Shown in pieces: positions 6,572-46,089 of a DNA stretch of 64,000 nt. Location: positions 51,598,558 to 51,662,557 of the forward strand of contig CM049310.1 of assembly GCA_026874595.1 (NCBI GenBank). The letters are read 5' to 3'. Every line of letters begins with the position of its first letter. The first letter of the stretch is position 1. Made by a program: the position numbers and the translations under genes. Below the pieces are notes generated by a model, which did no database searches, was not told the DNA's origin, and worked only from the letters and a program-made list of their open reading frames with translations. This stretch comes from Sipunculus nudus. Taxonomy: Eukaryota > Annelida > Sipuncula > Golfingiida > Sipunculidae.

Positions 6572-9060
6572 CTATCACCCCCCCCCCCCTCCGTGGGACA
6601 TATTGTTAGAAGTCCCACTCACTGTCGTTGTCGTTGTCAAATTATTTCTAAAATCTGGGACGAGACTTGAGAAGTTTTGCATATTTTCCTTTCAAATCCA
6701 CACATTACTTTTATAGTATTGCATATTTGTCCTCAAGTGATTTGAACTAAGTTCTTGAAAAATGATGACATTGGCTAGGATCATCAAGTTCAAATCAACC
6801 AAATTAGAGTTAATCAACTTACGGATTTCTTGTGAACGTGATAATTATGGAAGTATTGCATATTTCCCCCCTCAAATTTCCAACGCCAGTTGTTTCCATC
6901 AGGTTCTTGGATAATTCGAAAACTGATGGCCTTGACAATGAATTTCAATGTCCCATCTGCGGAATTTAGGATTGTTGTGATCCCTTTTACTTTTGAAGCA
7001 CTGCATTTTTTTCTTGAAGTTTGACACACCAGCTGTTTCCAACATGTTCTCGGCTTTATTCCATAACTGGTGACCTTGAACTTGATCTTCAAGGTCGAAT
7101 CTGCGTTAACCTAGTATGATTGTGGTTCCCATAAATTTTGCATTTCTGAAAATTTTTCCGTTACATTCGGCACACATCTTGTTAGCGCATACCCGAGGAC
7201 TGGAGGTATAAACATTTCCAGCTCAAGAATAACAGTCGTTCTAAAATTGAAACAGTACTATAGGCCATTCAGATGGATTTAAACTTTAAAATTTAGTGCT
7301 GTTCTGTTTCGTTTGGCTGAGATTTTTACGTTTGCCTGCGCGCCAACTTGCAAATATTTATTTTTCAGTAGTTGTAAGAACATATGTTCCTTCTTCTAAA
7401 ATAATAATTAAAAAATATACATTCGTAATATACATTTATCTGTCATATGTCTTACACGAGATTATTAATTGTAGAGCCTTTCCTTTATGTGTTCAATTCA
7501 GGGATTTGGACATCAATCATCACAGGTGTCAGCTAGCGGAAATTAAGCCAAGGTGAACAGCCAGTTAAAGTAGGTTCCCGGAAAGAACAGACGGACAGCT
7601 ACAGATGCTTGGTCTGACATACTAAAATTGTTTAGAATGACCAAGCCTATCTCAGTGATTTGGTCATACCCGATGACACTAGAGTATATTGATTTGAAGG
7701 ACTTCTTAGGGTGTTAGATTAGAGAGTCGGTAAAAATTGTAATTTAGAGCATAATGAAAGGCGCAATGCTTTAAATGGACACGGTGATCTCATCACACAA
7801 GTCAGAACAGCGTGAAATACTATTGAAGCCTATATAGGACATTTTCCTGAAGAAAGGCTTCAACAGTTGAAGTAAATCGTTAAATATATTTAACAAGATG
7901 TAATTGTGACATAGTCGCCAGCCCTGTCCATGCAGTAGACAGCTGTAGAAGATACCATACCATTCTCTCTTCTGGGCATTCTCGCGGACTGGCCCGTCGA
8001 ACTGCTTCACATGATAACACTTTTGAAAGAAACATGGCCATTTTTAATACCGCAAACAATTCGGACACACAAATGAAACTCAGTTTTGTTGTCATTGGTC
8101 TATGTTACTTCTATTCAAACTGCATTTACGAAGCTGCCACAACATTTGCTCCATTGAATCTTTACTGACAGTGATTATCTAAATCTGGGATATAACCATA
8201 TCCATTTTGAGTCCTACCAGGTACCCTAATTTGATAATTGCTCAAGCCGGGCTCATCAAAGGTGCATTCCTGTGTTCTCAATGCTGTTACGGTAAAGGGC
8301 AGTTTTCGGCTATTTCGCATTCAGGACATTTTTATTCTTTTTACAGGGATCAACCATTTTTACCACTCCGGACCTAAAACAGGGTACCTCCAGCTGGCTA
8401 TGTCAGAAGAATCCATAAATAAGACGGCTTTTGTTACCCACTGGATATATTACACTGAACTGTAACTACTTCCCTTCATTGCTCCACTGCCTCCCTATTT
8501 TCAGAAATCAAATCCAGTGTTGCCTAGAAAAATCGGCACCATAATTATCCTTTGCCAAGACTCTTGTTTAAATTCTGGTAAATATCCTGAAATGTTTTTA
8601 ACTCGGTTATTTGGGCTAATTAACCTGATTAATCCAAAATAATCTGCTAGTTTCATTTCATTTGAAGAAGCAGATTACCCATCTTTCGAATTTGTTTATT
8701 GTTAGATTTCGAATTTTCTTTTGTCTGAATTTGATGTCAAAAAGCTATATTGATGAAATTTCATAGATCTGGGATCCAATTATATTCTCTCTCTCTCTCT
8801 CTTCCTCTCTCTCTGAGATTGTCCGATAGATTTGTTACAGGAATATACTGGGAGAAATGTGCAAAAAGTGGTTAATGGACAGATGTGGTTAATCAAGTTC
8901 CCCTGTTCTGCGGGTGCAAAATACTCCTTAATACCATCATCCATTATTATATGAATGACAAAATACCAGGAGAAGAAGGAATTGCATATTCCACAATACT
9001 TAAGTAATTCATACATCTATCTCACATAATATGAACGAGGTTTAAAGATCAAATGCGTGG
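6190..9060. repeat. 3' flank of gene B; left copy of a segmental duplication
   Basis: It matches 44190-48640 collinearly and in the same orientation. Anchors are GAGGATACTATG at 6237 and 44207, CATTTATCTGTCATATG at 7433 and 46801, GAAATTAAGCCAAGGT at 7540 and 46909, and GGGAGAAATGTGCAAAAAGTGG at 8850 and 48551. It holds (TA)n at 6518-6570, a C-run at about 6579-6590, a tandem repeat of about 140 bp at 6640-7130 and a CT run at 8786-8815. A further copy of its gene-proximal part lies at 58500-58970, next to gene D. No gene is seen; the 92-codon frame at 7092-6814 is an accident of the tandem repeat. Confidence 0.65.
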
Positions 9061-9106: not shown

Positions 9107-9201
9107 TCAGCGAAGGTTCTCAACTTCCTGGAAGATATCGTTGATGTTCCCTCCCTCCATCTCCTCAGGCACTGGATGCTGCGTCAGGATCTCGTGCACT
9201 T
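9107..9201 (-). CDS. Gene B exon 9 (C-terminus)
   Basis: Acceptor TTTGCAG at 9202; encodes EVHEILTQHPVPEEM, GGNINDIFQEVENLR and a TGA stop. The exon is 95 nt in copies B, C and D. It is acidic and probably helical. Confidence 0.8.
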
Positions 9202-12200
9202 CTGCAAATCAGGTAATGTAATTATATTTTCTGAGTATATTTAATGTCTGAAGAGCGGAAAAATGTGTGCTTCATTTTTCTCCATTTCATGTTTAACTTG
9301 TCGAACTACATTCAATGACTGAAATGCGGAAAAGTGTAAAGGCAATTCGTTTTGCCATCTAAAAATCATTTTTTTTAAGAATATGGTATGAGCATGACCC
9401 AGTTTAGATACCATCTCTAGAATGAACAAGCAGTTACAAATAATGAGTTCCTGTGATTTGTGTGTAAATATTTGCTTATATTCAAAACATGTAAACATGA
9501 ATGTCAATCACATTAAATCCTTATTTGTCCGTGTTTGACAATGCTTTGGAGCGGACTAGGTCTTATATTGTATTGCTGTGGATCATAACCACTATTTTTA
9601 TATGAATCGAATTTCTACGTAATATTATATCCAAAATACAAAACAGATGAATGCTTTAATCTCATTTTGGATCATGGAATGATTTTTAGCCTAATTTGAA
9701 TGATTGGCAAATGATATGTATATATATATATTGTTATTATGTTCAGGTGCATAATGTAGGTATTTACTAAATACGTTCTTTTTCTTATTTAAAGTAAAAA
9801 GTGGAAGTCGCATCACGTTCAGAATGACGGCTTAGTACTTGCCTCTTCTGACTTCCAGTATAGCTTGGTCGTCCATGCCGTTCAGGGCTTCCAGAAGTGG
9901 TGTGTAGTCATCCACAGATCTTTTGGCCAGACCCAAAGCTTTCTTCACCTCATGCACAAGACTGGACGCCATGGCTGATAATGACCTGTTGTTAACATAA
10001 ACATATTTCCAAAAAGCTATTATTCCAACAAACAGATCTGTAAACCCATGTTAAGTTTCGCATGTTCACGGAATCACACTTCTTTTGACTTATTGACAAC
10101 GCTTGTTCCTTAATTAAGTATGATAGGCATTAGTTGGTAGTTCATATTACTTAAGTCCATTATACATATACAGTGGAACTCCGCCTTGCGACCACCCCCG
10201 CTGTAACGACCACCCTTCCTGGACCCGAATATATTATTCATGTAATTAAGAATTTTACAAAATACGACCACCCCTAAATTACGACCACATTGGTCATTTC
10301 TTCAAAACAGAAAATATTCACCCTTGCTATTCATTACCCAAGCCGCCCAGGGTTATATAGTCTTTACATAGACATAAAAGAATGCGTATTTTGTTCTGAA
10401 AAACCCATATGGAAAGGGACATATACCAGTACCACCACAATACCATAAACCAAAAAAGAATATATCCTTGTTTAAAAGTAAGTATTGAGTTGCCTCTCGA
10501 TTTTTTTTAATCAGTTGAATACCCTGCTAGATATAAACTATCATATGACGCTCTAAGTCAAAATTATTTAAATAATATGGTTTATTTTGCTTACTGCAAT
10601 TTGACTTTAAATCCAAAAGTTGTAGGTGAACGTCTCAGGAAGCTGACAGTGATGCTGGCATCAAAGTGTCCGGATGTCGCCACGCCCAGTTTAACGTCAA
10701 AGTTGATTTGCCTTATGTCAATCAAACCGCCAAGACCAAGTGAAGCGACCTTTTGGGCAATCATGGTTCCGAAGCGATTGGCCAGTTTCACGGCTTCCAA
10801 GGCACCTTTGACGACATTTAAACTATACCTACAACATGGGACATAATGTACGGTATGGCTCATGGGACCTTTTGCGATGTATTGAGAAGAGTTTACGGAT
10901 TAAATGACAAAAGAATATGCTCCGCACCAGAAAAGCTCTACACCTTATGCCTTATTTATATGTATGACTTTACTCCTGGGAGTGTGAATATGCGTAAGTG
11001 TTTATTTAATTTTATCTATGTAGTTTCAGTAAAGCCTGGCCTGACAACAGCCTCTGTTTAGTGACCACTTCAAAACAACGACCACTGTTAACTGTTCGTC
11101 ATTTTTTCGGCTTTTTATATAAGACCTCGCTTAGACGTCCCCTGGCGAATGCGAACAAATAATCGAGGACCCAATGGTTGACATAATTTTGAGGAGGTTT
11201 TCATGTATATTCTTTTCACGTGACCATATTCACATACGCAAGTAATGCCTGGAAAACTGCGCCTGGAGTTCTTTTACAATAGTAGAAGTTTTCACGACTT
11301 CAGGAAGTGATGCAAAATAATATGAGCATTACAGTAATTAAAAATTATAAGGTGTCATGTGAACAGATTATGATGCGCTTTAAAGAGGAAACTCGATTTG
11401 TTTATGATCGAAAAATTGTTAGTGTTTTCATGTGTGCCTGCGTCTGTCACGTGTATCTCGCGCGCATTAGCTCAACCTTTGATGCGTGCTATATTTAATG
11501 TATATGCAGTTCCACGAATTAGATAACCAGCTGTTGTCATAACTAGCAGTTGTCCATTTTATATTAATATTCATGATATCTTATTTGACCAACCTGGATT
11601 TGTCCACAATGACCTTGGCAGCCGAGAGAGCGACGTTAGCAACATTCAGGGTAACTTTGGACTTATCAACCACCACCTGCGCCCCCTTGAGGACAAGATT
11701 TGCTGCATCGAGTAAAACTTTACTCTTATCAACCACCTTTTGAGCAACAGTCAAGGCCGCGTTTGCTGCATTTAAGGTATTCTTACTGGCTGATACGGCC
11801 GCCTGCAAACCCTGGAGAAGTAAATACAAAAAGTCGATATATTTTTTTCCTCAGACTAATTACAGATATAGATATATCATCGTTAAGATACTCCATGAAG
11901 AAGAATTCCTCAAGCCCCTACTGATACAGTTACTATCTGGAAAAAATAACCTTCATGTACCTAAACACGTGGAAAGGACCAACATAATTCTATGATTTGT
12001 TTAGGATAAGGAATTAATTTTATTTATAACCATACTTATGCGATCCCACACACAAACCTGCCAAGTCTAAAAACAACTCCATTATTGCGTCCATATAACC
12101 TGATGAAATGTGACAGTCTTCCTGTGCACCTTTCAAGTGCATGCGACATCTCAGTTGTTTGAATGACGCATGATCATGTGGGTATCGATAGAAACACATA

Positions 12201-15200
12201 CTGCGCGTGATAGTGTGTGTATGCGTATGTTAAACTTCAGCTATCTCACCCTCAGTACGCCAAGGCACGATTGTCTTGCGACCCATCTGGCCTTACACGA
12301 GACTTCACCTTAAAGTGACAAAAACAAAAATAATTATCTCATGCACTCACATTTAAGACAACAATATACAATTTACCACCAAACTCGTGATCAGCCATAT
12401 TTACGAGAATCATTATAATTATTATGATCATCAAACCCCTTAAAAAGTAGACATAATATAACAAACACTATTCATAATTAACTAAGTAAAAAAGTGTGTT
12501 AGTCCATTTTCATGTTTTTAAAACAGAAAATGTAACATTTTGCAGTTTAGTACACAGGATAAAAAACCTTGGGGCATATTTCAATCTTGAAACACACAAA
12601 TGAATAGTTTGACGGATCTCTGAAGGGTAACGGTTAATCTCAAACATAGCTTTTGGGTATTTTGTTACTGATACTGTACCAGTTTCGGAAACAGGATTTT
12701 GCTATATGGGGGTGCACGATTGTTAGACAGAACTTTCACCATCACTTTTCTCAGCATCTCTAGGAAAGGCATATGTTTAAATAATGCCATTTTAAGTCGG
12801 GGAGCGAGGATAAAAAAATTGGGTTTGTCGACCAAAAATAAGTATGTAACAAAAAAATTACCTAACAGCATATCCATCAACATTTTTCATTTTGTTTTAG
12901 GTGATAACAATAAATGTGATGAATTCCTTAATCATTAAAAAAAAACTACTTAAATGAAGGAACTGTTAAACTTGTTAACGCCTAAATTTACATGGGCTTC
13001 TCTTATCTAATGATTATTTTACAATATTAATGATAAAAAAGTATATTTAAAGCATTGAAATGACTAAAACTTCACGAAAATGCATAGATCACTGGCATAT
13101 TTGATAAAAATTATATACAATTAAGCAACTTCCATATACTTTGAGGCAGACCTACAGGGAATTTTGCTGGTTGTATCAGGTAAAAAATAGCCAGGGACAC
13201 TGGACAATGGACACAAGAAACCATCATAATCATTGCTATAGCATATTTTGTCGGAAAACATATGACGAATTTTATCCCACAATGCTGCTTAATAAATCAT
13301 CCATGAAGAAAAAATCCTTTTTTTCAGGCAATCTATCTACTACACACCTGCAGACATCAACTATTCAATTTAAATCAATATATTCATTGAAATTCATTTA
13401 CAGATACAAAACAAAGACTCATCAAACCCCAAGGCCCAAACTAGGTAATATATGTCAAGAATAAAGTTAATAAACTCTATTTGCGGTAGAATGGAATCAA
13501 ATAATGGTCTAAATGGACACGGTTTCCTGCCGTTTCCTACCAGTGGGGTCTGGGTCGTAAGAAAACAATGACCCCAATTACTTAAATAGGTATAGCTGTT
13601 GCTTTATAAATGTAGAGAATAATGTAAATGCATGCAATAGCAAGGGCTCTTCCATTCGGAAGGGCTGTAGGGTGTGCGGACAAAGGTAAAATAGTTCTTG
13701 TCAAAAATATGAAAAAACTTGACCTTATATGATATTTATAAAAAAAAATCTTATTCACTGAAAGAGACGTACCGAGTATGGAAGGCAGCCAAAAAAATGG
13801 AATTCTAAAGGGGGCACGTCACTCCTTCCCGCCGCCCCCCCCCCCCTCCCCCCCCTCCCCGGATCAGCCTATTTGTACTCATCACTGCAAAGGATTAATG
13901 AAGCATATTGCTTCTTATGTGAATTATAACCCAATATACAATGGTTTGATTTACCTAGGAGAGAGAAAGACAAGCTCATTCGAACCCTTTCAGTCGACAG
14001 TCTTTCAGTACTTCAATATGACCATGAATGTAAAATTGTACATTATACTGACTTTGTGATGTGGTGAGACTACGTGTATTACTACGGTTATGCACCAAAG
14101 GAAACGTAGAAAGTACTGCCCGTCTGTTCTTATTTTCGACAATAAATGAATTTCCAACTGGGCTATACCCCAATCCAGAGGGAACCCCATTAGTTATATC
14201 CCACGTTTTAATATGGACCGGTCAACTTAGGGAATCTGGTGTAGTAAGGGCAGATGGCATGACTGTTCGCCACCAACGGTGATCGCTTAATGAGAAGGGT
14301 GTGTCCAACAGCCATTTCACTAACAAGTGCCCCTTGGAGATATATCCTTTAATCTAACCACAACAAAAGGGATTATTACACATTCAGAGCCAATAGTAGG
14401 GGCCATTCAACCCTAGGATATTAAATATGATAAGGGTATGATACGTAGCCCAAAATGGGAATGGAATCTTGCACATGTACATAGTAGTCTCCGCCAGAGG
14501 GCGGGATTTTATTACCGGCGTTAGCTTATTCGTCTCTTTGTTTGTCTGGTTAGCAACATTACTCACAATGTTCTTTACCGAAAGCAGGCCAATAATACAA
14601 GGAACAATTTATACAATTTTGGGGTGATATGGATGACCATCTCGATCCAGGATTGTTTTAAAACCAAAAGTGCTGCATTTCTGACAATCCTTATGAGGGT
14701 AATTAGCTGTGATCTCTTAGTGCATCATTAGTTTAGATTAGGATAGTTTAACCAAATAGATTGATATTTTCACAAGTCAATAAAAGCACCATAGCATAAG
14801 TAATGTGAGTGCATTATAATCAAGAGAAAGAGTCGGGTAAAGATGGAAGCTGCTTATATCAAATTCGAACTCGCACATCATCGTTTCAAATATTCAGATC
14901 TGTATAAATCCCTGAACCACACACACTTATGGTGGTGAGACACAGCCTATAGTGCTTTGGGCGTTGAGATTTTATATGATCTCCTCCAGCACCCGATGTT
15001 GAAATGGTGAATTTCGAAAGAACACCAATGACATGATTTTTTCTTGCCCTGTCCAAATAGAAATCTGAAACCCAGAAGGCTTACCTTTTTTCGTCATAAT
15101 GCAATAAACAATTCTACCAACCCTATTTAGATCTATCCTCAAGACGTCTGACTTACGCGCTCTTTCCCTGGCAAACTCCCTGCCCTTCTCTACAGGGTTC

Positions 15201-15738
15201 CAACGCCGCCCCCATCCTCTCTTTGCACGTATTGGGACGAAAAATTGCTGAGCCTCATTCCCATCCATAAAAGCATTGACATCTCTTCCTGCAGAGGATT
15301 GGTGAAAGATTTTTTGCTGGCTTATTACTGTTCAAGTTTTGCAGATGCTCCATGGTAAAGATTAAGCAATATGCATACCTACTGTTTAAATTCCATTAAT
15401 TCCATCGATGAAACAAAAGAGATATATATGATAATGTAAGACAAGTCTATATGATATTTAATAACACATTCAGTCTTTTGGTTTTCAATGAATGGAACAC
15501 ATTTTACCTTCATTTTTCTGTTTTCGATCTGATAATATTATTTAAAATAGCCTCGCATATATCCACAACAAAAGCTTAAAGAGAAGATGATAAGATTGAT
15601 TGGTATATTGCTAAAAGAACCGCAGAATTTTAAAACAGAGTATAAAAAGGACAGGGTAAATTTCCAATCTGTAATTATAATTCTATTAAAAAAAATTCCG
15701 ATCTGTAGAATTTTATGAATTGTATAGATTTTGGGAGA

Positions 15739-15791
<53 letters not shown>

Positions 15792-18700
15792 ATTTTGCGT
15801 GGAAAATATTCAGCACTTCACGATTTATCGCGTTTACAAGAAATTCGGCAGACGACGATAGACGACGGGACTTGAAACATCTTGGGTCGACATAATAAAT
15901 GAAGACGTAAAAGTGCATTTCTGGCGGTAATATTGTCATGGAGGAGTTAATTACCGCGATCAATTTCTTTCCTGTCAGACCATGATAATGACTCCAATTC
16001 TGTTTTCGCTCTTATGATATTATTTAATATATATAGCGTCAAATATGTCTAGAACAAAAGCTTTAATCGAAGAGAAGATGAGGAGATCCATTGGTGTCTT
16101 GCTTATTGGAAGCGCAGAGGTTTAATAAAGAATTAAGAAAAGACAGTAAAATTTTCGCTCAGTATTATTTCATGAGGTGTATAGATTTCTCAATTTCGGA
16201 CGTTGTGACATTAGTTAAGCCTCCTCCTCTGTAAGGAAGGGGTCTTTAGGGATTGATGAGTTTATCTCAACATTGATAATTGGTTCACAACTTTTTGAGA
16301 GCAACAATTGTGGGATTACTGCTCCAGAGTGCCAGATCATTGATTATAGATCTTTTGCCGCATTTGCACTTGATCTCAAATAAAGCTGATTTTTTTAAAC
16401 CGACCATTACACAAATTATTAATCGTTGGGCATATATTTGCATCTGATATTTATTGTAACCAGACCTAATATCCAAAGTCATTCACCATATGCGCGCATC
16501 CGGGGCGGTTTCGAGTGATCGCTTGACGATTGTGAACATCTAGTTAATGTGAATTAGTGGAGCGGTGTAGCAAGAAATGTGATATAACATTGCACTTACG
16601 TCGTCGGCAGGCAGATGGACAAGAACCCTCTTTCCTCCTGAGTGAGTTCACGGCTGAGTCAAATTTAGCTTTTGCAGAGTTAACGGCGTTTTTCTTCGAT
16701 TGAAGTGTGCGCATTGCGTTGTCAAAATTTGCCTTCTGACTGTTAACTTTGTTCTGCGCTGATTTAAGAGAATTGAGAGCTTGATCAAATTTTGCTCTTG
16801 CACTGTTTACTTTGTTCTGAGCCGCTGTGACTTTAGCTACAGCTGAGTCAAATGCTTTAGTTGCTGACATCACCTTGGACTCTGCTTTACCGATTGCTGC
16901 ATCGGCTGCTTTCCTGTAATTATCAAGTGACGCCTTGACTTTGTTGTGCAGCTGCTGGAACAACTGCTGACGGAATTCACCCTTAACTTGGAATTCTGCC
17001 TTCTTCAGGTCTCCGTACTGAGCTCGCACATCAAATACAGAATCAAAGAGCCCAAGGAACTTGCCCTCCGTTCTAAAGTGTACACCTTGCGTATCAATGG
17101 TAAGGTTTGCGTATTTACTAATGCCGAGAACTTTCAGGCCTCCCTCAATCATGATTGCAGCTTGCTTAGGATTCCAACGGAGATCAACATATAATCGTGG
17201 TCCAAGACCACGTGAACCGAAAACCTTAATCAAACCACTTCCGATCTTAAAGGGTGACACACGGACATCAACAAGAAGCCCGTTAGTGTCTAGAGCAATA
17301 TCAGCATCTAATCTGAAGAACATAATTTGCAACGTTCCCTTCAGGAACAGGCCTTGAGGGATAGAGACGCCATTTGGTAAAGTTCTCTCGACAACTGAGA
17401 AGGAAGCGAAAACCCCGTTAGGAAATCCCATTTCTGAAATTGCTTTTGGCATAGGGACAGAAGCAGCAAATGCCTTTAATATACCACTGATCGTCAGTTT
17501 GCTTATATTGCCAAAGAAGTAGTTGTTCATTGGGTTAACTCGATCAATTCCAAAGTACGCTTTAGCCCCTATGGGAGTGGCTTTTGGGTTGTCTATCAAA
17601 CCTATGCGCACGTAAGCGCCCATTTCTAGAGCTGTGACAGCCAATGGATCGGGAAGTACGGCAATGCTAAAATGCATATCACCCACACTTAATATAGGAA
17701 TACCAAAAGGTTTCTTCCACATGCCCAAGGAAGACATGGTTAACTGTATGCCACTCTGAGAGAAACCAAATGACCCAGTGAAAGTAAGAGGCGGATCGTT
17801 CAACACCAAAGTTCCACGAAGAGCCACTGCAGTTCTCGAAGGACCAAGCTCAACTTCAAACCCTACATCCGTAATAACAGCACCTGCGATCAGATTGATA
17901 GGCTTGGGCACAGTGGCTGTGAGTTTAATACTATTAGAAAGAAGTTTTCCCCCGACAGTAAATGTTGCATTTTCCCCCAGGATTCGTTTGCTTATTCTAC
18001 ATACCAGATCACAAGGGTCGGGAAAAGCAAACACTCCACCAAACTCAATACCTTTCGTGATCTGAATCTCCCTCAGGCCATTAATTGTAAACTGCATGTG
18101 TTCCATGCTTCGTGGGATTGATCCTGAGGAAAGGATTAAAGAGGGCTGAGTATTATCCAGGATTGAACTGCCTGGGACTTTGCTGAGGTCCACTTTCCCA
18201 GCCGTCATCTTCTTTACCATATCAGTGATAGTAACTTCTCCCATGAGGAACCCAGCTGCGACGACCTTTTTACCACCGACGTCACCCATTACTAACTCCA
18301 CTCTATTGGCCTTCCACCCAGCTATTTTTGCTGTACCTGCCAGGTTCATAACCTTGTTGGTTCCCATATAGATTTTCATATATGGATTTACAACCGAAAA
18401 TGTGGACATTCCAATTCCTGATATAATAGACGCAAGAGGCCCTGAAGGAATAAATGAGAGCGCAAACTTTTCCATTAGTTTTCCGACAGGTATGTTGAAA
18501 TTTGGACTTGACTCAGCTATGAATACATTCTCACCAACTGGTTTAGATATTTTCAAGGGGATGCTCATGCTGCCTGTATCCCACACAGATGTCATGTCCA
18601 CTCCGAATTCAGCGCCTGTCCCTGATACCGTAACATGGAAGGTCAGTTCGACAGATGACAGCACTATAGCATTTGGGATTATAGTTAATGGGCCTGGGCT

Positions 18701-21700
18701 TCTAAGGGGAACCGAGAAAGATTTGCTTTCGCCGTTCAACAAAAGGTTGACGATTTCCCAGTTCAAGATGGCATCTAGTTCCAAGCCACTTGGAAAATTC
18801 ATGCTTGAGAGCTGTTGTTTAAATTTGGAGAATACATCATTAAGCCTCAACCCGCCACCCTGTGGGAGATTGAAGGTTAAATGTTTAGGCTTGACCAAGC
18901 GGATACTGACTGTATGTGTTTCTCCTGCAGCACTTGCGTCAAACTGGATAGTTGTCCCATTTACAATCTCTCCCATTCCATCAAGGGTTGCTTCAGGGTA
19001 AGCAAGGGCAGGCGTTGAAAGGTTCTTATTTGCATACCTAAAGCAGAATCCACTGAGAGACATTGTGTCAAACAAAGGGACCACTGAGATATCAACATCG
19101 GTGATTTCTTTAACCACTTCAGGCAACGAAAGTGTTTTCGAGCTGACACCTGCTACATCAAAGTAGGTCACCCAACCTTGGGTCGTATTCTTTTTGGTAA
19201 GTGTAATAAAGACCTGTGGATCACCAAGCTTTGTTGACGGGACAGTAAAACCAAAGCGGATTACCATGGTGGTGTTTGAAAATTCGCCAACCATATTGAC
19301 ATTAGACAGCTGGACATTGCCAATCTTTAGAGCCTGCAGGCCTGAGGAAAGTTGACTGCCAATTAAGAATTGGTTATTAGCAAGCTGTGAGATAGAGACA
19401 CTGCTGGCAACTAGGGCCCCATTTAAAATTAAAACCTTGGTTTGGTCGATTGATGCGGTGAAGGAATACTTGTTTGGGCCTAAGGTAACTACACCTGAAG
19501 ATGTCAAGGTGTAAGACTTGTCAGTTCCGTTATATGTTATAACTAAAGTAGTGCCTGGGTCGACCTGGAGGGCGTCATCGACGAGAGCGTACTTCTTGTC
19601 ATTCTGCATGGACATAGTTACCTCCTTAGCGCATACATCCAAGTCCACTCCGGTCATGAACGTGTTGCTAGGTATGACCTCTTTGGCCAACAGACTCAGT
19701 GGACTGTCTGCTCCAAAGGCTTTTGCTACAGCCATTTGAGGTGTGAAGCATTTCGGAGGGTTTGGGGCGAAGTTGTAGTCGCAGTCATTCGGGGAGGTCA
19801 CGATGATGGAACATGTGTCTGTTACTTTGTACTCGCCAAGCAAGAGTTCCTTCAGGCCACTTTTAGCAGTCGAAAAAATATCTTCAGCCGTAGGGAGATT
19901 CAGAACTGAAAGATGCATAGATAATAAATTTTGCAACAGATTGGAGAAATATCATCTATAAATAGGGGATGGATTTGGTTTTAACATTTTAAAGTTTGAT
20001 AGTTGCACTAATCTGAGATAGAATACAACCCTTTGCTAGATATTCCAGCATAAATCCAGCGACAGCAACCTACATTGTAGTTGCATTTTATAACTATGTA
20101 TAAGGTTATAATGTAATGAAAACGTGCTAACATGTTCAAATATTAATTTAACGGTCCTAAAAGTACATAGAAAAGGTAATATGACAGTTCTTGGTGATGC
20201 TGATGATTATTATTATGGGTACTGAATTTACATATAAACCAGGTAAGATATTCTCTCCATTGTTGTTCATCAAAACTTCAGAATATCCCGAAACTGAATC
20301 ACATTTTAGCGGACTGTTCGACGTGTTATTATATTTTTTATATCTAATGAATTTACATTGTATTCAGGACGTTCGATTTTAAAAATCATTTCAAAGAACA
20401 TTTCAATCAAACGCATTTTAAATTGAAATGCCATATTCGAAATGCAGTAATAAACATGAAATTTTTACACAAACAAAAAATTAGAGATTATCCTGTACCT
20501 TAGAATGATATCCCAGACATTTAGAAATGAAACATGTATAATTCTTATTTATTTTTATCTTTCTTAAATTAGCTGATTTATACCCTTCAATGATGAGAAT
20601 GTCCAAAGTATTCCAAAAAGTAGTCCGGGAATTTTTTTAGGAAAACGGAAACAATGTTTAAATACACCTATTTGCTAATTCTGACCTTAATATTAATTAT
20701 ATATAAATAAAAGCTTTGGTAAATCAATATCGAAAATAAACCTTGCCTAAGAGTTTTAGAAGGTAAAATAAATAGGTATCAGAGATAATAAATAGTGTCA
20801 AGATTTGCACTCACATTCCTTGACGGTGGCAATATTTTGTGCACGGGTCAATCCGATGACCAGGAGGATCAACACTTGCGCCCTCATCGGGAAACTTCAA
20901 TAAATTACACAACAATCAATATTTTCCATATCTCTCTTCTAAAACTGTATATATATATATATGTACCTCTGCTTTAAGCAATGTTTGCTGCGAAAATATT
21001 TTACATTTATTTATATACATCAAGGGACTATTCAGATGTTCAGAAAGAAAGAAATTGAAATGTGTCTGCATCATTCTTCCCGAACAAATTTGATTGTTCT
21101 TCTACCATCTTTCTTAGGTTTAGTTCACATGATATAGATTGTCTGAAATATAATTTTGAGTTAAGTATATTTTTAATATTGTAAAAGAAGACCTAAAAGT
21201 AGACCATCTTGATGAGAACCTATGACCGTTGTAAGTATAAGGCTGTGTATCTGGGTAACAGGGTTGTATTCCCCGTCATCTTAAAAAATACATAGGATAA
21301 ACATAGGACACAGAATATTAGGAGGGGGGAGGGCCTCACACATTCAATCAACAAGTAGTTGATCATTCATCTGATTCAGGGTTGCCAAGGCTTATATAAA
21401 TCAAGTGTGAAGTCGCACCCACCCTTTGGTGTAAAGCCTGCTTCCCACCGTCGATTTATTTCCTTCGACCATTTACAGACAATCGCCGACAGTCTGCGAA
21501 TGCTTGCGACTGGCGTTCAACGAGCCGACAAAGACTCGAGATCTCGGAGTTTCCCGAGTTGTTTATTCAAATTGGAAATGATAAATTTGTGTAAGCAAAA
21601 ATATCATTAAAAAAAATATCACAATATCAGATACAATTCACCAGTACAGCAAAATACCACGCCTAATTTATTACATGCCCTTAATTTTTGGTTTCGGTAG

Positions 21701-24700
21701 GGGTATTTGGGCGAATTCTGGTTGTAGGGAAACGGTATTTGATTCCACATCGACATCAATTAATCTCCCTTTCAGGGGACCAAACAATGCTAACTTGGTG
21801 CCACGCCACGTATCACATCTTTTAGCTCAGTCGCAAGGAACCGCATGAGTAGATGAACGCATGATCAGCGAATGGCGGTCGCAAGTCGGAAGTCGCGTCG
21901 CAAGGCCCGCTCACTTGCGATTTACATGCGTTTATAATGAGCGACCAGTCGCAGATCCCTTGTGATTTTAGTCGCATCGCATTGCGTCGCAAAATAAAAT
22001 CGCCAGTGGGCGGCAGGCTACACTTGATAAGGGATTTGATACAATTTTAATTAGAAAAGAGGAACAAGGGAAGCGTATATAGTACAAAGGAGTTTTCCAG
22101 TTTGATATTATAGACAAGTCGCGATACGGTGATTCGCATTTTTGCAATTTGGTTTTCATATATCGATATATTTTTTTACATATTTGAAAACGTGACTGAA
22201 GCTAAACTATTGATGTAAAAATAAGGTTTCTACTTCATATTTTGATATATAAATGGACTGAGTTTAGTGAAAGACATAATAACGAAAGCCGCTGCCATGT
22301 CTAGAGCCGATTATTAGGAAATTTTAAGAAGGCTTGATTGACCATATGATCAAAGGTTCGTCCCATTTGCCAGGGTATTTGATTTTCAACTCGAACAAAC
22401 AAAAGTGCCACAGAAAAAAGAGGTACCGAATATTGTCAAAATAATTGGTCATTAACATTCCGTTTCCGTGCAGTTCAAAATATTTTTAAATCTTGAAAAG
22501 AGAAATCATGAAATGACAGTTATAAAAAAATTAATAGTAGGGTCTGTAGAAACAATGGGCTACAAAAAAAATAATGTTACATATTCATGAATATTACATG
22601 CTCAGGTTTACAAGATCTTTAGATGTCACCTCTGGTGATCGTGATAAATTCTTAGAAGGTATTTATGGGTTACCAGACAGAAGCGGATCCAGGGGGAGTC
22701 AAGGGGGTCCGGAACCCCCTTTTTCACCCGAAGCAACCTTTTTAAAGGGTTTTAGACAAAATTTTGCTGCCTGGACCCCCTCCCCCTTTTTTTCCGGACC
22801 TGGTGACCTTTATTTTAGGATTTTTATTAGTCCTCCTGGTTTAGACCCCCCTTTTCCTAAATCCTGGATCCGCCCCGCCAGAACTAACCGAGGACGAGGC
22901 CTTGAAGTGTGAAGGTAACATCACTGTCACAGTGGTAATTTAATCTTTAAAAAAGTATGCAAAATAATAAAAGGAATGATGGAATAACAAATGAATTGTA
23001 TTTGGATATTTTTACTGATGTAGGTGTGGAAATAACTGCTTTTTTACATGAAGGGTATCATTTAGGAGAGTTATAGGAGAGCCAATAAAAACACATAGTT
23101 ATTTAGCTTTAAGAAAAATCGGGTAAGGACAAAGGATATATAAAATCCTGGAGACCAATAACTTAATAAATGTTGACTGTACACTCTAAGAAAAAAGGGT
23201 TCTTGACGGTTCTTTTAAGAACCCATATGGTTCTAGGTAGAACCATGGTTCCATCTAGAACTCTTTTCTCCGTAAAGAGGTTCCATCTGGCACTTGGAGG
23301 TTCGTGCCCTGACGATAACTTGATACAAGGTTCCAGGTGGAACCTGTGTGTTGACTGGATATCCCGATGATTATGACGAGCATGCGCAAGCTATTTGAAC
23401 TAATGAGTCCAACTGTTCATGGTCGGATGTTTTGGTCTATTAGAAGAGGGAATAATTGTGAGGTAATACCTATGTTTATATATATTTTTCATGTGAAGAA
23501 TGTTGAACTTATGACTAGAGATTAACTGTCCAGTGAATTAATGTATCCAGTTAGTCCCCGTCTGCAAAAGAAGTTACCAGTAGTGGCGGTACATTCACTC
23601 AATCTGAACGTGAATCAAGGCCGATGATAAACATGCTGTGCGTGCACGAATTGTTGCAGTCTATACCAGTTCATAGTAATATCAGTCATGTAGAATTTGA
23701 AACAGTTCTGGCAGTGCATGTAAAAGGAAATGACCGCTTTTTAACAACATTAACCAAACAAAATTATAATTCGGTTTCAGGGACTAAAACTAAACAAACC
23801 AGGCAACTGTACATGAAATACACCCAAAACATATTGTAGTGTTTATAGTATTACTCTATGATAGTCTATCCTTAGTCGTTTCCTTATATAGTCCTATAGA
23901 TAATTTATTATACAAATTAAGGATGTAAGAACGCATCGCCAAACCAGTTTTGAGCATAACCAGTATATGGGACTGAATGGAGCGCTGTGTTGAAAACTGG
24001 TTAAATGGGGTGTTCAACAAAGGGGCCTAAGGAACCACACGGCCTCTCCCAATGTTTGGTCACGCTTAATTACACATTACAAAGGTTACCTATCCACACT
24101 CTCTCTTTGCAGTGACCAGATACATCTGCCTTGATAGCTAAAGTGCGAATGAAAGAGAAGAAAGTATTTTCATTTTAAAATGCTGTTAATTATAACATGG
24201 TAAGTTATTTCAGAATTATTCCTAAATTGTAACGTGTCACGTGTTAATAATGCACATGGAATTGTGTATCACAGAGCAGAAAATCTAAGTTTGTTATGTC
24301 TGTATTTACATCTGATTATGAGGAACCTATAGATACATTAAGTGAATAATATAAGGTTACTTACTCTATATTGAAATATCGTTGCAAACAAATGCACACA
24401 TATACACTATATTTGTAATATGTTTATATTATGTTTTGGAAATTTTCACCTGAGTCTCTCTAGGTGTGGTCACGCTTTATTACACATTCGTTGAAGACGT
24501 TCTTTATTAATTTTTTAAAGTGTAGAATATACAAAAGTCGCCATCCATTCTCTCTTTGTAGGAACCAGATATATCTGCCTGGCTAGCGAGAAAGCAAATA
24601 AAAAAGAAGAGAGGATTGTTGTAACAAGAGCTGACGATTATAACATGATAGGTTATCCCAGAGACATTTCTAAATCATAACTCGTGTTAATTATGAACAT

Positions 24701-25941
24701 GGCATTGTGTATAAAAAATAGGGAAAAAGCAAAATTTTGTTGTGTTTACCATGTCATTGTTAACCACATAATTACAAAAAATCTACAAAAAATTCAACAA
24801 TGTTAATAAAAATTATGAGGTAAATCAGGAAAATTATGTATTCTACATGTTGATACACCGTTGTAAAAATACACGTATATTATGTTTATAACATTTAACG
24901 CGTTAATGCTGTTTCAAAAAACTTCACAAAATATAAGAAGGTTGTCGACATTAACATTCTCAATAAGATTCCTCTGAGGATAGAGGGAGGTTGGAATTAC
25001 CCAATTCACAAACGATAAACGTGTTTTAATGAACTCTCAATAACCAGTGGTAAGATACCCAAACTGTTTGCATATCTAAAGATTGCATAATTTCCTCCAC
25101 TGTGTTTAGGTGAGAGCAATTGTGTGACAGGAATTAACGGAATATATATACGTGTGAATATTTATTTTTTTTTCATTTGTGTATCTAATCTCTTTTTTTC
25201 CAGACTGAGTCTACGTACCGTACCGCTCCGTACCCTGTACGCATCACGCAATCAACGGATATGTTTACACGGAACTCTGATTATTTCGACCGTCGCGATG
25301 TTTTGGAGTTTATCGTTGATCACACAGGACATCAATTGTACCTAAAAGAACGTTTTAGTTGGAAGATTTGTATACATAGACACATTTGCCAAAGGTACTC
25401 GTATATGTTTGAAACACACACCAAAGCGTATTAGCTGTACTAGCCATACAACAATCGTATAAGACACTTAGCATCTCCAGTTGTTTGTCAATCATATGCT
25501 ACCTCGACTTTATATATTTATTTTTTTAAAACAGAGAAGTACTAAATTTATATTACAGATTTGCTACACAAGAGGACCCTAAGCCACAAAATGTAAACAT
25601 GTACCTAAGAACACGTAAACAATCAGAAATGTATTCTTGATGAACACCAGCTATCAAACCCAAAATGAACAGCACACATAGGGTCAGCATGGATGTTCAT
25701 TCATTCGCCATTTGTGTGTGTGTGGGGGTAGGACAGACAGTGCGAAGTATGCAATTTTCGTGTGAGTATATATATATCAAGAAAACTTAAATTTATTCAG
25801 TCCAAAACATAACATTTGCCTGCAGTATCAAAGACTCTACGTTTAATGATTCCAAGGAGATCTGAATGTACAAGTATTAATTATGAAAAAAAAATGATCG
25901 GAACTGTGTTGGGTGTTCGCGAACTCTGTATCGCGGATGCC

Positions 25942-25989
<48 letters not shown>

Positions 25990-27399
25990 TATTGGTGCAC
26001 ACATATGCTATTGCTTTTTGGTCGTTGCACTTTTTTCACAAATGGATTTTTACAACTAAATAAAAGATGTGTTTCTTAAAAAACGTGTTTTTATTTCAAC
26101 TGGAAGGATTAATCATATTTTCAGGACACGCGTATAAATATCATTATTCAGCTGTGATCCTTGCAGTTACCCACTTTCTATGAGATACATTTTCATATCA
26201 TCTATCTAAGATGTTTCCTTTAAATAATGATATATGACGTGATTAATTTATCCTAAACGTATGATATGACATCCTAGACTGTTTATTAAAATAAGCCTGC
26301 ATTGAAGGTTTTATAAAGAACCCTATACATGGGGTTACGCCCAGAACCTTTTAAGGTTCCCCACTCAGTCCATCGTGAAGAACCTTGGAGAGTTCCTCTT
26401 AGAACCTTCGAGAGGTTCTAGGTGGAACCGTTTAGGTTCCAGAAAAAAAAACCTTCGGGAGGTTCTAAAATTGAACCCTGCCTTTAAGGTTCCCTCTCAG
26501 TCCACTCTGAAGAACCCTTTTGGGTTCTACATAGAATCCTTTTTTTTTATTTAGAGTGTAAGGTGTTAAGTAAAATTCTAGTTTCACGATTTCGAAGAGT
26601 TTTGCAAAAAATGGTCCACTCAGATCAGAATGCTTTTGTTCTAGAACGCTTTATCGTGAATTCAGTTCACGTAATCAGTGATATGATGGGATATTGTGAT
26701 ACAGAACAGGAAGAAGAAGAAGCAACCAGGAAGAACAGGGAGAAGAAGCAATCCCCTTTCGAGCGGACTTAAAAGCAGCTTTTGACTCATGAGATCAGGT
26801 CTTCATTATAAGTGTTCTAAAAAAAAACTAGGCTTTGACCTAATGTTCATTAACTGGAAAAAAAATTTGCATAACAACATGAAAAAGCTGTGTTATTAAA
26901 AACGGTTTAACAACACCATACTTTTTGTTGTCTAGGGGTACTAAACAAGGGGATCCAGTTTCCCCATATTTGTTTATATTAGTTTTGTAAGTCTTAACAT
27001 ACCAAGTGGTATAAATAAAAATATCCAAGGATTCCATGTTGGCGCATATGAACTAAAAATGACATTTTTTTTGCAGATGACATAACTTTTTTCACCAGGA
27101 ATTGAGCTTTATTGGAACATTTAATTAGCACTATAAATGGGTTTTCACAATTTTCTTCCCTGCATGTCAGCCTGGGTAGGTGCAAATAAACACAGTATTT
27201 ACTACAACAAGTTTAATTTAATTGGTCAACCTGACAATATATGGTGTATAATATATGTTATATATACTTTTGAAATTTATAATTTACATATATAATTATA
27301 TATATTAACAATTATACGAAATAACCTTATATATAACAATATGAGAACATTGACTCACCGGTTCATCGTTGCTGGCTTCATCATTAGCAGACCAGTCAT
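9107..27399 (-). CDS. Gene B, complete: large secreted protein with beta-rich region, 21-residue helical repeats and furin-type sites
   Basis: Nine exons join in phase to 4308 nt, encoding 1435 residues from the first ATG (or 1429 from the conserved MKP Met). In order: basic leader and signal peptide (hydrophobic core LILLVIGL, residues about 17-32); N-terminal part with four Cys (72, 82, 93, 132); about 880 residues of alternating hydrophobic and polar strands with many N-x-S/T sites; helical region 1017-1130 with 21-residue repeats; RRRR at 1141-1144 and RAKR at 1163-1166 (furin-type); a short Cys pair; 21-residue helical repeats (about 1207-1279); a beta-rich exon ending SFLRRSPTTFGF; and an acidic C-terminus. 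I know no family name. Role as an extracellular structural or matrix protein is inference from secretion, repeats and glycosylation sites. Copy D conserves the last six exons, which supports the model. Confidence 0.75.
9202..9842 (-). other. Gene B intron 8 (GC-AG)
   Basis: AT-rich. No other coding sequence recognised; the 88-codon minus frame at 9507-9241 has no counterpart in copy D. Confidence 0.6.
9843..9985 (-). CDS. Gene B exon 8, followed by a GC donor
   Basis: 143 nt, phase 2 in, 1 out. Encodes SLSAMASSLVHEVKKALGL, then AKRSVDDYTPLLEALNGMD and ILEVRR. The acceptor is AACAACAG. The donor is GCAAGT, not GT: AGAAGAG|GCAAGT. D has the same exon length and AGAAAAG|GCATGT. Confidence 0.8.
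9986..10594 (-). other. Gene B intron 7, with a MITE-like fragment
   Basis: From 10171 the plus strand reads CAGTGGAACTCCGCCTTGCGACCAC, preceded by TA, then a series of ACGACCAC repeats to about 10290. This resembles the end of a TA-flanked DNA-transposon MITE; its other end was not found. A related ACGACCAC stretch is in intron 6. Confidence 0.5.
10595..10828 (-). CDS. Gene B exon 7: beta-rich exon
   Basis: 234 nt, phase 2 in and out. Encodes KLANRFGTMIAQK, then LIDIRQINFDVKLG and SGHFDASITVSFLRRSP. D has the same length and very similar sequence (60568-60801). The frame reads into TAA right after the donor, but the TAA is part of GTAAGC; in D it is GTAAGG. Splicing to exon 8 keeps the frame. 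Confidence 0.8.
10829..11593 (-). other. Gene B intron 6
   Basis: At 11027-11110 a stretch with CAGTAAAGCCTGGCCTGACAAC followed by GTGACCAC and ACGACCAC units resembles the MITE-like fragment of intron 7, suggesting a related insertion. Nothing else recognised. Confidence 0.45.
11594..11811 (-). CDS. Gene B exon 6: 21-residue helical repeats
   Basis: 218 nt, phase 0 in, 2 out, acceptor CTTCTCCAG, donor GTTGGT. Three units with the core VDKSKV.L..AN..L..AQ, spaced 21 residues. Same length as the D exon at 61514-61731. The period equals that of the helical tail of exon 3, which suggests the two regions pack in one coiled coil. Confidence 0.8.
11812..12249 (-). other. Gene B intron 5
   Basis: No feature recognised beyond the splice sites. 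Confidence 0.5.
12250..12308 (-). CDS. Gene B exon 5: small exon with two Cys
   Basis: 59 nt, phase 1 in, 0 out. Found by conservation with D (62429-62487): both encode WVARQ flanked by one Cys on each side (EVSCKARWVARQSCLG in B, EIKCAPIWVARQLCLAG in D). The exon is required: joining exon 4 directly to exon 6 would hit a stop at once. Confidence 0.75.
12309..15156 (-). other. Gene B intron 4
   Basis: 2.8 kb, AT-rich with a pyrimidine tract of mostly C at 13828-13860. Several open frames of 60-107 codons occur on both strands, none with splice context or similarity to copy D. Confidence 0.5.
15157..15288 (-). CDS. Gene B exon 4: short segment bracketed by furin-type sites
   Basis: 132 nt, phase 1 in and out, acceptor CTCTGCAG and donor GTAAGT. 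With exon 3 it makes CRRRRD; then come NAFMD, QQFF and RAKR followed by GW. The D copy (63578-63673) has RRDANAFMD, QQFF and RVRR followed by GW, so the two basic sites and the 22-residue spacing between them are conserved. B carries 12 extra residues after GW (including RR and VEKGREFARERA) compared with D. Confidence 0.8.
15289..16599 (-). other. Gene B intron 3, with an internal tandem duplication
   Basis: Segments at about 15515-15680 and 15995-16165 match each other (TTTTCG.TCT.ATAATATTATTTAA, ACAAAAGCTT, AGAGAAGATGA, TTGGT). (TA)n lies at 15743-15788, and the 141-codon frame across it is an artefact of that repeat. Confidence 0.5.
16600..19905 (-). CDS. Gene B exon 3: beta-rich region and first helical repeats
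   Basis: A single 3306-nt exon covering residues 41 to 1143. Acceptor CTTTCAG at 19906, donor GTAAGT at 16599, both phase 1. Four Cys lie near the N-terminus, then a PDPCDLVC motif and many repeated strand patterns such as PNGV...IPQGLFLKG and GLGPRLYVDLRWNP. Potential N-glycosylation sites include NGT, NTT, NAT, NIS and NLT motifs. The end is helical (residues 1017-1130) with three 21-residue units of the form AQNKVNSARAKFDQALNSL, which is three heptads each. The last residues, GSCPSAC followed by Arg codons, lead into exon 4. Antisense frames over this exon are shadows. Confidence 0.85.
19906..20814 (-). other. Gene B intron 2
   Basis: AT-rich. No repeat or exon recognised. Confidence 0.5.
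20815..20894 (-). CDS. Gene B exon 2 (signal peptide)
   Basis: Acceptor TTATTGAAG ends at 20895. The exon reads (R)FPMRAQVLILLVIGLTRAQ, then NIATVKE, and stops one base into a codon at a GTGAGT donor (20814). LILLVIGL is the hydrophobic core and TRA-Q a plausible signal-peptidase site. An in-frame TGA lies just upstream of the acceptor, so either exon 1 is used or translation starts at the ATG at 20887. Confidence 0.7.
21430..22020. mobile_element. MITE-like element with inverted ends
   Basis: The left end reads GCCTGCTTCCCACCGTCGATTTATTT and the right end, reverse-complemented, GCCTGCCGCCCACTGGCGATTTTATTT: an imperfect inverted repeat. The interior is rich in GTCGCA and GCGAC words, reading outward from both ends. 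No clear target duplication was found and no transposase is present. Confidence 0.5.
22023..22170 (+). mobile_element. hAT-like element end (partial)
   Basis: The stretch from TTGATAAGGGATTTGATAC through ACAAGGGAAGCGTAT and GCGATACGGTGATTCGCAT matches the reverse complement of the right end of the element at 34689-35814. Only this end is visible here. Confidence 0.4.
22683..22873. mobile_element. Short MITE with GCGGATCCAGG terminal inverted repeats
   Basis: GCGGATCCAGG at 22683-22693 and its exact reverse complement at 22863-22873 enclose a GC-rich interior with runs of G and C (GGGGGTCC, GGACCCCCTCCCCC). Non-coding; the 112-codon frame over it is not a gene. Confidence 0.6.
23180..23348 (+). 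mobile_element. AAGAACC-type short element, copy 1
   Basis: The element starts TACACTCTAAGAAAAAAGGG and contains palindromic words GGTTCTTTTAAGAACC, GGTTCTAGGTAGAACC and GGTTCCAGGTGGAACC. The 9-base TGTTGACTG is repeated at 23171-23179 and 23349-23357, directly at both borders. A second element with the same ACACTCTAA terminus lies at 26314-26559 in reverse. Confidence 0.55.
24040..24900. repeat. Tandem duplication, period about 430 bp
   Basis: Two diverged units, starting near 24055 and 24470, share GGTCACGCTT.ATTACACATT, CCATCCA...TCTCTCTTTG, ACCAGATA.ATCTGCC and CATGGAATTGTGTAT-like blocks in the same order. No coding sequence recognised. Confidence 0.5.
25204..25434 (+). CDS. Candidate exon on the plus strand inside intron 1 of gene B
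   Basis: After a strong acceptor (CTCTTTTTTTCCAG) the frame is open for 76 codons to a TAG. It begins TESTYRTAPYPVRITQS and includes FDRRDVLEFIVDHTGHQLY. It is more GC-rich and less repetitive than the surrounding DNA and its residue mix looks protein-like. No partner exon, promoter or poly(A) signal was tied to it, and I do not recognise the sequence. It could be a terminal exon of a nested gene or a transposon remnant. Confidence 0.25.
   Translation, partial: TESTYRTAPYPVRITQSTDMFTRNSDYFDRRDVLEFIVDHTGHQLYLKERFSWKICIHRHICQRYSYMFETHTKAY
25946..25992. repeat. (TA)n microsatellite
   Basis: Near-pure TA dinucleotides. The plus-strand open frame across it is meaningless. Confidence 0.9.
26314..26559 (-). 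mobile_element. AAGAACC-type short element, copy 2 (inverted)
   Basis: On the minus strand it starts ACACTCTAAATAAAAAAAAAGG, like copy 1, and contains repeated GGTTCT and GAACC words plus two ACTCAGTCCA-like blocks. It is bordered by AAGGTTTTA at 26305-26313 and AAGGTGTTA at 26560-26568, a 9-base near-duplication with one mismatch. The right-hand border is also the first part of a LINE reading frame, so it appears to have landed in or beside that LINE. Confidence 0.5.
26560..27200 (+). mobile_element. LINE reverse transcriptase fragment (decayed)
   Basis: The frame KVLSKILVSRFRRVL, then DQNAFVLER, KAAFDS, FGFDLMFINW-like, TKQGDPVSPYLF and FADDITF follow one another with stops and frame changes between them. 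These are the core blocks of a non-LTR reverse transcriptase, including the QGDPxSPxLF and ADD motifs. It is non-functional. The clade was not determined. Confidence 0.65.
27359..27399 (-). CDS. Gene B exon 1 (leader)
   Basis: Codons MTGLLMMKPATMN plus two bases, then donor GTGAGT at 27358-27353. Copies A and C keep this exon with the same phase. The longest start is at 27399; the third Met (27381, MKP) is the only one positionally shared with copy A. Splicing to 20894 keeps the frame open (CG|T = Arg, then FP and the Met of the signal-peptide exon). It could instead be partly untranslated, with translation starting at 20887. Confidence 0.55.
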
Positions 27400-28230
27400 G
27401 CATTTGTATATGAGACCAGACTGTGCTGTGGTTAGCCACTTGACGGGGGCTTTATATACTCTTCTTAACACGGGATCGCTATAAATATTTTGATGACTCC
27501 ACTATTACTAAAAGAAACGATGTACCCACATGAAGATATAATCGAACGATGCCGGCAAATGTTGTCAACTTTGTTGATAACATCTATCAGGTCTTAGGAG
27601 TTAAGAAGAATGACCTTACAATTTTCAAAAGTCGAAGTTTATTTAAGATAGAACGATAACATATATGCGGAGTCTGTTGTTTCATTTATGAAGAAAACCC
27701 GATACCTGTTGAATACGTATGCAGGTACCATATAGTCGTAAGTACATATAGCCGTGCAAACAATCGTAATACTGACGTCAGCGCCGCACCTGTTTAACTG
27801 ATGTAGTTGCATGTTAAGCCTGGGTTTAATAGGTATAATCCCTGGTAAACATAACTACATTTATAAGCAATCCAAATGTCGATGAAAATACTTCACATTT
27901 TGGTTCCAGGGGTGCCTTCTTATCAGGAGCTTTCATCAGCTTACTGTAAACCTGCGGGCCTGTGTTACAAAGCTACACAGCTTTTGTGTCTCAGTCGGTG
28001 CAAAAGGGGAACTCATAACAGACAAACATAGAGAAAGAAATACCTTTGAGCTCTGTTACAACGTCGCTGTTGCGATATAGGTTTATTATTTCATTTGAAG
28101 TGTTAATGAAAAAATAATATTAGAATTTAAAAAAAAGATTAATAACTAAATTGAATTTATTAATATTTATCTCTTATTATTAGGTAATATATAGAAACAT
28201 GTCTACTATTTTGAATGTGTTACCAACAAG
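27360..28230 (-). repeat. Left arm of an inverted duplication (upstream region of B)
   Basis: Reverse-complemented it matches 32990-33830 in order: ATAATAAGAGA.AAATATTAATAA, GCAACAGCGAC-like, TTTCTTTCTCTA, CCCTGGTAAACAT, CATCTTAAATAAACT, CAACAT.TGCCG, GTGGGTAC, and the promoter with exon 1. Confidence 0.65.
27451..27484 (-). promoter_or_regulatory. Promoter of gene B: TATA box and TATAGCG block
   Basis: TATATAAA at 27458-27451, 52 bases before the ATG, and TATAGCG at 27484-27478 on the minus strand. The intervening GATCCCGTGTTAAGAAGAG matches copy C (GTCCCGTGTTTAGATAGAG). Confidence 0.7.
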
Positions 28231-44189: not shown

Positions 44190-44734
44190 ATGACACCTAG
44201 TTCGGAGGATACTATGCAGGATAGGTGTTAACCATGGTCATACCGTTACAAATATTCTTTTTCCTTAATACTTGGTTTTATTACATTGATGTAATCGATT
44301 AATAAGGGTAATTTTAGTCAGAAATTTTACCTATATCGAAATTAAAATAATTGTTAAACTGTTTTGTATAAATGTAATGGTAAGTGCTTGGATGATTCGA
44401 AAAATGAAGACCTTGACCATGATCTTCAAAATCCACTCTGTGGAATTCTAGGGTTATTGTGATCCCTTTAACGTATAAAGCATTTAACACGCCAGTTGTT
44501 TCCAACATGTTCTTGAAAGAATCTGAATTTTTCCCTCCAATTTGGCACACATGTTGTAAGTAAGCCCGAGGAATGGAAGTATAATCATTTCCAGTTCAAG
44601 AGTAACAATCGTTCTAAAATTGAGACAGCACCTTAGGCCATTCAGATGGATTTAAATTTTAAATTTCCTGCTGTTCCGTTTCGTTTGGCTAAGATCTTTA
44701 CATTGGCCTGAGTGCTAACTTGCAAATTTTTATT

Positions 44735-45800: not shown

Positions 45801-46089
45801 GAGTCAGATAGTATTTTCTAGTTATTTTTTAAGTAGTCTGGAAATGTCAACAATATCATTCATATAGTATATATGCCTTGGTCACATCTATCGTGGAGCA
45901 GGAGAAATAAAAGGCATGTAACTTAAATATGCACTTAAATAACAATGAAATTCATTTGAATGGTTCATTGTATCCCCCAGACTAAGACGTCGGGGGACAC
46001 TAAGGGTCTGACTAATCCTGTGAGCATTTTTAAATGAGGTCATGATCTTTACCATGACACCTTGAATAGGTTCATTTTGACCCATGTTT

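Follow-up and report, generated by a model that had tools for sequence, protein, structure and literature searches.

What does the nine-exon gene on the minus strand of a 64,000-nucleotide stretch of the Sipunculus nudus genome encode, and what does its short fourth exon contribute to the product? The stretch (C5:51598558-51662557, referred to as the window, meaning the whole of the DNA analysed) had been predicted to specify a secreted protein of 1435 residues from no known family. The analysis described here, for which a genome of 1.43 Gb in 153 contigs was searched, confirms a real animal gene for a large secreted protein that is undescribed within the libraries searched. The undescribed and secreted character of the product stood; what the original prediction had missed was the tandem array to which the gene belongs and the putative cassette in exon 4, the part that carries a testable mechanism. 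We propose, with a probability of roughly 0.42, that exon 4 specifies an internal carboxylase-docking cassette in a family of two-chain secreted precursors, which would have formed in older members of the family and become worn in the array. The alternative of an ordinary, furin-cut matrix protein is rated about the same.

The gene family and its tandem array

The gene spans positions 27399 to 9107 of the window. Its nine exons follow one another with unbroken phases and reproduce exactly the predicted open frame of 1435 residues, ending in a single terminal stop. All introns are of the GT-AG type except intron 8, which is GC-AG both in the window gene (9842-9202) and in a second copy (59912-59106). 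The second copy is the next unit of the array. Six exons had been reported as conserved in it; all nine recur, with the same phases. Exons 4 to 9 of this copy lie within the window, also on the minus strand (63673-59011, comprising exon 4 at 63578-63673, exon 5 at 62429-62487, exon 6 at 61514-61731, exon 7 at 60568-60801, exon 8 at 59913-60055 and exon 9 at 59011-59105); exons 2 and 3 lie just past the window end and exon 1 in locus L052. Comparison of the two copies yielded a ratio of nonsynonymous to synonymous substitution rates (dN/dS) of 0.28 over 1406 codons, 0.25 in the large third exon and 0.22 in exon 7; two pieces of only 24 and 20 codons, the shortest in the comparison, gave values near 1. 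The window gene is clearly under purifying selection.

The array consists of about 25 units on the same strand across 0.65 Mb (C5:51.098-51.744 Mb). Exons 6 and 7 identify 25 units, of which 24 have a match to the large exon and 22 a match to the signal-peptide exon (exon 2) as well; the four exons tested for order (2, 3, 6 and 7) always occur in order, in 22 of the 25 units. The large exon has at least 37 matches genome-wide, those in the array interval making up 24 units on one strand. Fifteen of the 22 signal-peptide exon matches begin at the first Met and five at residue 3, while two are weak (69%, E ~0.003). Among 20 large-exon loci that were fetched, four units of one type (A) are 99% identical to each other, and 13 of 16 units of a second type (B) are at least 98% identical to each other, L016, L017 and L028 being more distant. 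A-type and B-type sequences share 65-75% identity over the exon and its flanks. This identity pattern indicates that the amplification was recent and two-layered.

Older relatives lie outside the array. Exon 7 occurs at nine older places (C5:34.65-34.77 Mb, C2:91.48-92.55 Mb and C15:24.6 Mb), near nine older large exons; six of the latter could be aligned to the large exon of the window and are 26-37% identical to it. Candidate phase-1 signal-peptide exons were found upstream in L029 and in L030, an older-type copy at C2:92.54 Mb whose large-exon match lists no stop; none was found upstream in L031. In a further paralogue, L048 (C5:34.73 Mb, positions 1381-1780 of the locus), exons 4 and 5 have merged into a single open frame.

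The predicted protein has a signal peptide core at residues 21-29. Exon 3 (16600-19905; 3,306 nt) encodes a beta-patterned region of about 976 residues (42-1017), followed by a coiled coil (1018-1135; 16622-16975) and the sequence CPSAC (1136-1140). The beta-rich character of this region is a reading of the residue pattern only. It contains an internal repeat, in which positions 89-334 and 390-636 (numbered on the first row of the alignment) align in a profile self-comparison with E 8.8e-11 and 13% identity. Next come RRRR (1141-1144), the docking-like motif of exon 4 (1149-1159), RAKR (1163-1166) and a Glu-bearing helix from residue 1173. Exon 5 (12250-12308) contributes a C-x9-C cysteine pair from residue 1191, exon 6 (11594-11811) helical repeats from residue 1207, and exon 7 (10595-10828) the end of the repeats and a small beta-patterned domain around residue 1314, beyond which the protein ends in an acidic tail. 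Exon 8 (9843-9985, with the GC-AG donor) and exon 9 (9107-9201, with the stop codon) are both present in the two copies. Seven to eight N-glycosylation sequons and eleven cysteines stand at matching places in both copies and, together with the signal peptides, support the secretion that had been predicted. The structural or matrix role also put forward is conjectural.

Profile searches agreed with the statement that no known family is represented. No Pfam or NCBIfam model reached its cut-off with the window protein, and the Pfam matches below E 0.1 fall in the coiled coil. Matches of the coiled-coil type are in keeping with the helical repeats described for two exons. Exon 3 gave no Pfam domain above the curated cut-off, and with it no known extracellular matrix family. 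For the other eight family members the best values were E 0.00039 in Pfam (among the 25 of 40 families listed) and E 4.2e-6 in NCBIfam, these being E-values only and the names of the coiled-coil type. Membership in such coiled-coil families was rejected, as the matches of the window protein lie below cut-off. Solved chains gave only weak matches, the best (E 0.0019) covering 153 of 1104 profile positions, and in the exons scanned Pfam showed no protease, EGF or kringle domain. A viral or bacterial origin was rejected as well, no relative having been found in prokaryote genomes or viral contigs by scans with a few degenerate peptide patterns, which could miss a remote relative.

The docking-like segment of exon 4

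Known recognition sequences of gamma-glutamyl carboxylase (GGCX) have F, A, L and R spaced by 6, 4 and 5 residues (PMC4537219), and in the structure of GGCX with factor IX, F31 and L41, ten residues apart, contact the propeptide-binding domain (PMC12589487). Exon 4 of the window gene (15157-15288) encodes a docking-like segment, a furin-type site and a Glu-bearing helix. The motif FMDGNEAQQFF (15239-15271) is followed by RAKR (15218-15229) and preceded by RRRR, which spans the junction of exons 3 and 4; each of the two proteins that were assembled has only two RX[KR]R sites, and they flank the motif. Eleven distinct exon 4 sequences were compared, namely array types A, B and B variant and eight older ones; all 20 fetched array loci carry one of the three array types or a one-residue variant. 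The F is invariant (11/11); L048 alone has Ser in place of the A, which the other ten keep, and the position ten residues beyond F is always occupied by I, L, M or F. The arrangement F-16, A-10, I/L-6, R-1 with an RxKR end is exact in five of the eleven (L030, L039, L041, L042 and L050). In the remaining six the last basic site is set back by at least two additional residues.

The motif regular expressions were set after the family had been seen and are weaker evidence than a log-odds matrix built from seven vertebrate propeptides, none of them from this family. The matrix was applied to 58,624 distinct 18-mers from open stretches of at least 60 amino acids in the window and fetched loci. It ranked L030, L050, L042 and L041 first to fourth, with L039 and the B variant tied eighth. 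The number of shuffled sequences reaching the observed score, out of 5000, was 0 for L042, L030 and L050, 3 for L041, 9 for L039, 17 for the B variant, 54 for L031 and 64 for B. When only the docking part of the matrix was scored, the copy in the window came 99th of 58,624. The shuffle counts suggest that several older copies carry the signal and that the copy in the window owes it to homology and bears a two-residue insertion.

The segments that follow the cut site, whose ends were set partly by eye, contain 70 Glu and no Asp in the eleven sequences; the corresponding counts for the coiled coils, taken over nine rows of the family, are 60 and 85. The paralogues compared are not independent observations, and the Fisher value calculated for this contrast has no meaning as a probability. 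The Glu residues are mostly 3, 4 or 7 positions apart and would therefore lie on one face of a helix. Each of the eight older sequences has 5 to 12 of them, the array types only 2 to 4. The genome also encodes GGCX and VKOR, as judged from exon matches: GGCX is represented by four exon matches at C2:37.18 Mb, one of which matches the solved vitamin K-dependent gamma-carboxylase with E 1.9e-20, and a VKOR-family protein by an exon at C7:45.31 Mb matching solved VKOR with E 1.8e-11. Separately, eight VKOR matches of equal score are intronless frames of 440 amino acids on contigs C61, C62, C66, C72, C74, C75 and C89 (L043 and L044). In L043 and L044 the VKOR frame stands beside frames that by eye resemble a succinate dehydrogenase/fumarate reductase flavoprotein and an oligopeptide-binding protein. 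These contigs are probably bacterial DNA, in several closely similar copies, that was assembled together with the animal genome.

We postulate the following course of events. The signal peptide would bring the chain into the endoplasmic reticulum, where the short amphipathic segment of exon 4 would dock on GGCX, allowing the enzyme to carboxylate Glu residues on one face of the following helix. Furin-type proteases would then cut at the basic sites (RRRR and RAKR in the window's protein) and free the docking peptide. The remaining chains, a beta-rich and coiled-coil one of about 1,100 residues and a helical one of about 270 residues, might be joined by disulfides through CPSxC and C-x9-C. Once carboxylated, the helix would act as a Ca2+-binding tether between the protein and mineral, membrane or matrix. 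Whereas the gene, its exons, the array, the selection, the motifs and the genes for GGCX and VKOR are established, we infer each of these steps (docking, carboxylation, cleavage, disulfides, Ca2+ binding and the extracellular role). Several older copies, on C2 and at C5:34.7 Mb, seem to have the cassette in complete form; in the amplified array, where two extra residues precede the cut site and only two to four Glu remain, it may have been weakened or lost. Somewhat more tentatively still, the family could represent a new invertebrate vitamin K-dependent lineage, characterised by an internal docking cassette excised by furin, an amphipathic Glu helix in place of a Gla domain, a giant beta-rich secreted protein, an endogenous GGCX substrate unconnected with venom, and a later tandem amplification of about 25-fold.

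Several results weigh against the docking proposal. The window's own copy fails the exact spacing by two residues, and its A-type segment was matched by 524 of 5000 shuffles in the ungapped matrix, which is not significant; nor are the scores of L029 (416) and L048 (879). Real propeptides, left out of the matrix in turn, score 20.0-26.4 against 17.3 for the best family member. Two of the five copies with exact spacing are damaged: the large exon of L050 is in fragments with stops, and the coiled coil of the L041 gene is interrupted by a stop. The large-exon match of L042 also lists one stop, which was not located (in L039 the listed stop lies after the exon end). The odds for docking were left unchanged by this, since the stops in damaged copies lie outside exon 4. 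The motif is short; a profile of the segment, run against solved chains, retrieved no vitamin K-dependent protein and only ClpP by chance (E 1.1), from which it follows that the docking-like pattern is common; a search of the PDB with the L030 exon 4 peptide gave no informative match. The canonical Gla domain, PF00594, was matched by none of exons 4-9 in copy 1 or copy 2, and none was found genome-wide, where one candidate was scored and the control was silent. Periostin carries the same kind of motif and was found uncarboxylated (PMC4537219). When one older exon 4 sequence served as genome query, six places were returned, all belonging to this family; the array and two older copies were missed, so that this search does not exclude the cassette elsewhere.

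The strongest competitor, on a par with carboxylase docking, is an ordinary furin-processed extracellular structural protein in which exon 4 supplies no more than a helical linker for presenting the cut site, followed by a salt-bridged, uncarboxylated single Glu/Arg helix. Helices of the F[LM]xxxEAxxF type arise by chance, as ClpP illustrates, the motif misled in periostin, and the array copies are few in Glu yet under purifying selection. Moreover, helices favour Glu over Asp. A simple linker leaves unexplained, however, the vertebrate spacing in five of eleven sequences, the top-four ranking by the matrix, and the 70:0 ratio of Glu to Asp beside Asp-bearing helices of the same family. Less likely than either is a history in which carboxylation was ancestral and lost in the array, the array copies, that of the window included, now making an uncarboxylated matrix protein amplified for dose. 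The inserted residues ahead of the cut site and the drop in Glu (2 to 4, from 5 to 12 in the older eight) point in this direction, as does the near identity of the A-type and most B-type units; against it, all 20 array copies read retain the F, the A and the second aromatic residue.

Two further explanations fare worse. The position of the segment between RRRR and RAKR or RVRR in the two assembled proteins, and its possession of an exon of its own, would suit a secreted peptide signal for which the two large chains are carriers. This is improbable, as the positions of F, A and an aliphatic or aromatic residue are conserved in an otherwise variable segment, and the rest of the protein is equally constrained. 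As to a chance joining of unrelated open frames, the identity of nine exons and their phases in two units, the ordered exons of 22 units, the proximity of exon 7 to nine older large exons and the in-frame fusion of exons 4 and 5 in L048 reduce its probability almost to nothing.

Start codon, flanks and a neighbouring element

The start codon had been placed in exon 1 (27359-27399; 41 nt), which together with the next exon reads MTGLLMMKPATMNR. Exon 2 (20815-20894; 80 nt) has its own in-frame ATG at 20887 in addition to the signal peptide, and exon 1 could on these grounds be considered spurious. This was ruled out. Counterparts of the exon 1 block occur at 19 array places, with identities of 99-100% in 4 and 76-82% in 15, and four aligned array sequences (two A-type and two B-type) all keep the ATG, the 41-nt length, the donor and an upstream TATA box (TATATAAAG, minus strand, 27450-27458 in the window). 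Exon 2 was found in 18 of the 20 fetched units and is 80 nt long and in frame in all 18. In four of them (L013, L015, L019 and L020) Met-Arg is changed to Ile-Trp; since the Met inside exon 2 is replaced and the frame is still open, translation of these units needs the ATG of exon 1. These findings support the start codon as originally placed.

A broken array copy, its large exon containing stops, lies directly before the window (C5:51589628-51592973). The duplicated unit runs well beyond the last exon, as seen from window segments 7151-8527 and 44526-48232, which are up to 83% identical; the latter, the downstream flank of copy 2, is interrupted by other sequence. Also downstream of copy 2 is an element of the long terminal repeat type (50211-56871) with direct repeats of about 735 bp that are 97.4% identical. 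In its pol frame (52707-55919) the integrase precedes the reverse transcriptase, an order of the gmr1-like kind.

Comparison with known systems

Like the vertebrate Gla proteins prothrombin, factor IX and protein S, the family described here is predicted to be secreted, in an animal whose genome encodes GGCX and VKOR. Its older copies have a similar succession of docking-like segment (F-16, A-10, I/L-6), basic cut site and Glu-rich sequence. The vertebrate propeptide lies next to the signal peptide, whereas the present segment lies inside the protein, some 1,150 residues away from the N terminus (1149-1159 of 1435). The Gla-rich protein (UCMA/GRP) presumably offers a likeness in its docking stretch, cut site and Glu-rich helical mature part; it is a small protein of one domain. 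Exons 4-5 of copy 1 gave no Pfam match to the UCMA family model, which we take to be among the Pfam families, and those of copy 2 only a weak match to YozD. In periostin the motif residues are buried in a folded module, while here a separate exon holds them next to basic sites. Recognition sites are mostly N-terminal pro-sequences, matrix Gla protein being an exception in which the recognition sequence is embedded and is not a removed N-terminal pro-sequence, as with exon 4 here (PMC4537219 and PMC9146348). Matrix Gla protein keeps this sequence when mature; the window's protein has it between two furin-type sites.

No protein of this kind was found among the top-listed papers in the open-licence literature of PubMed Central, and nothing relevant in that on bivalve or byssus Gla. 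The enzyme GGCX occurs in insects and molluscs. Drosophila has an active GGCX that recognises human propeptides, although the fly has no described classical Gla protein (PMC12112360). This unannotated family, with its striking recent tandem expansion, supplies a named candidate substrate with predicted residues and, if the proposal is correct, a candidate for the long-sought invertebrate targets of the vitamin K enzyme. It differs from the gamma-carboxylated peptides of Conus, which are small venom peptides, in being a family of proteins of 1,400 residues.

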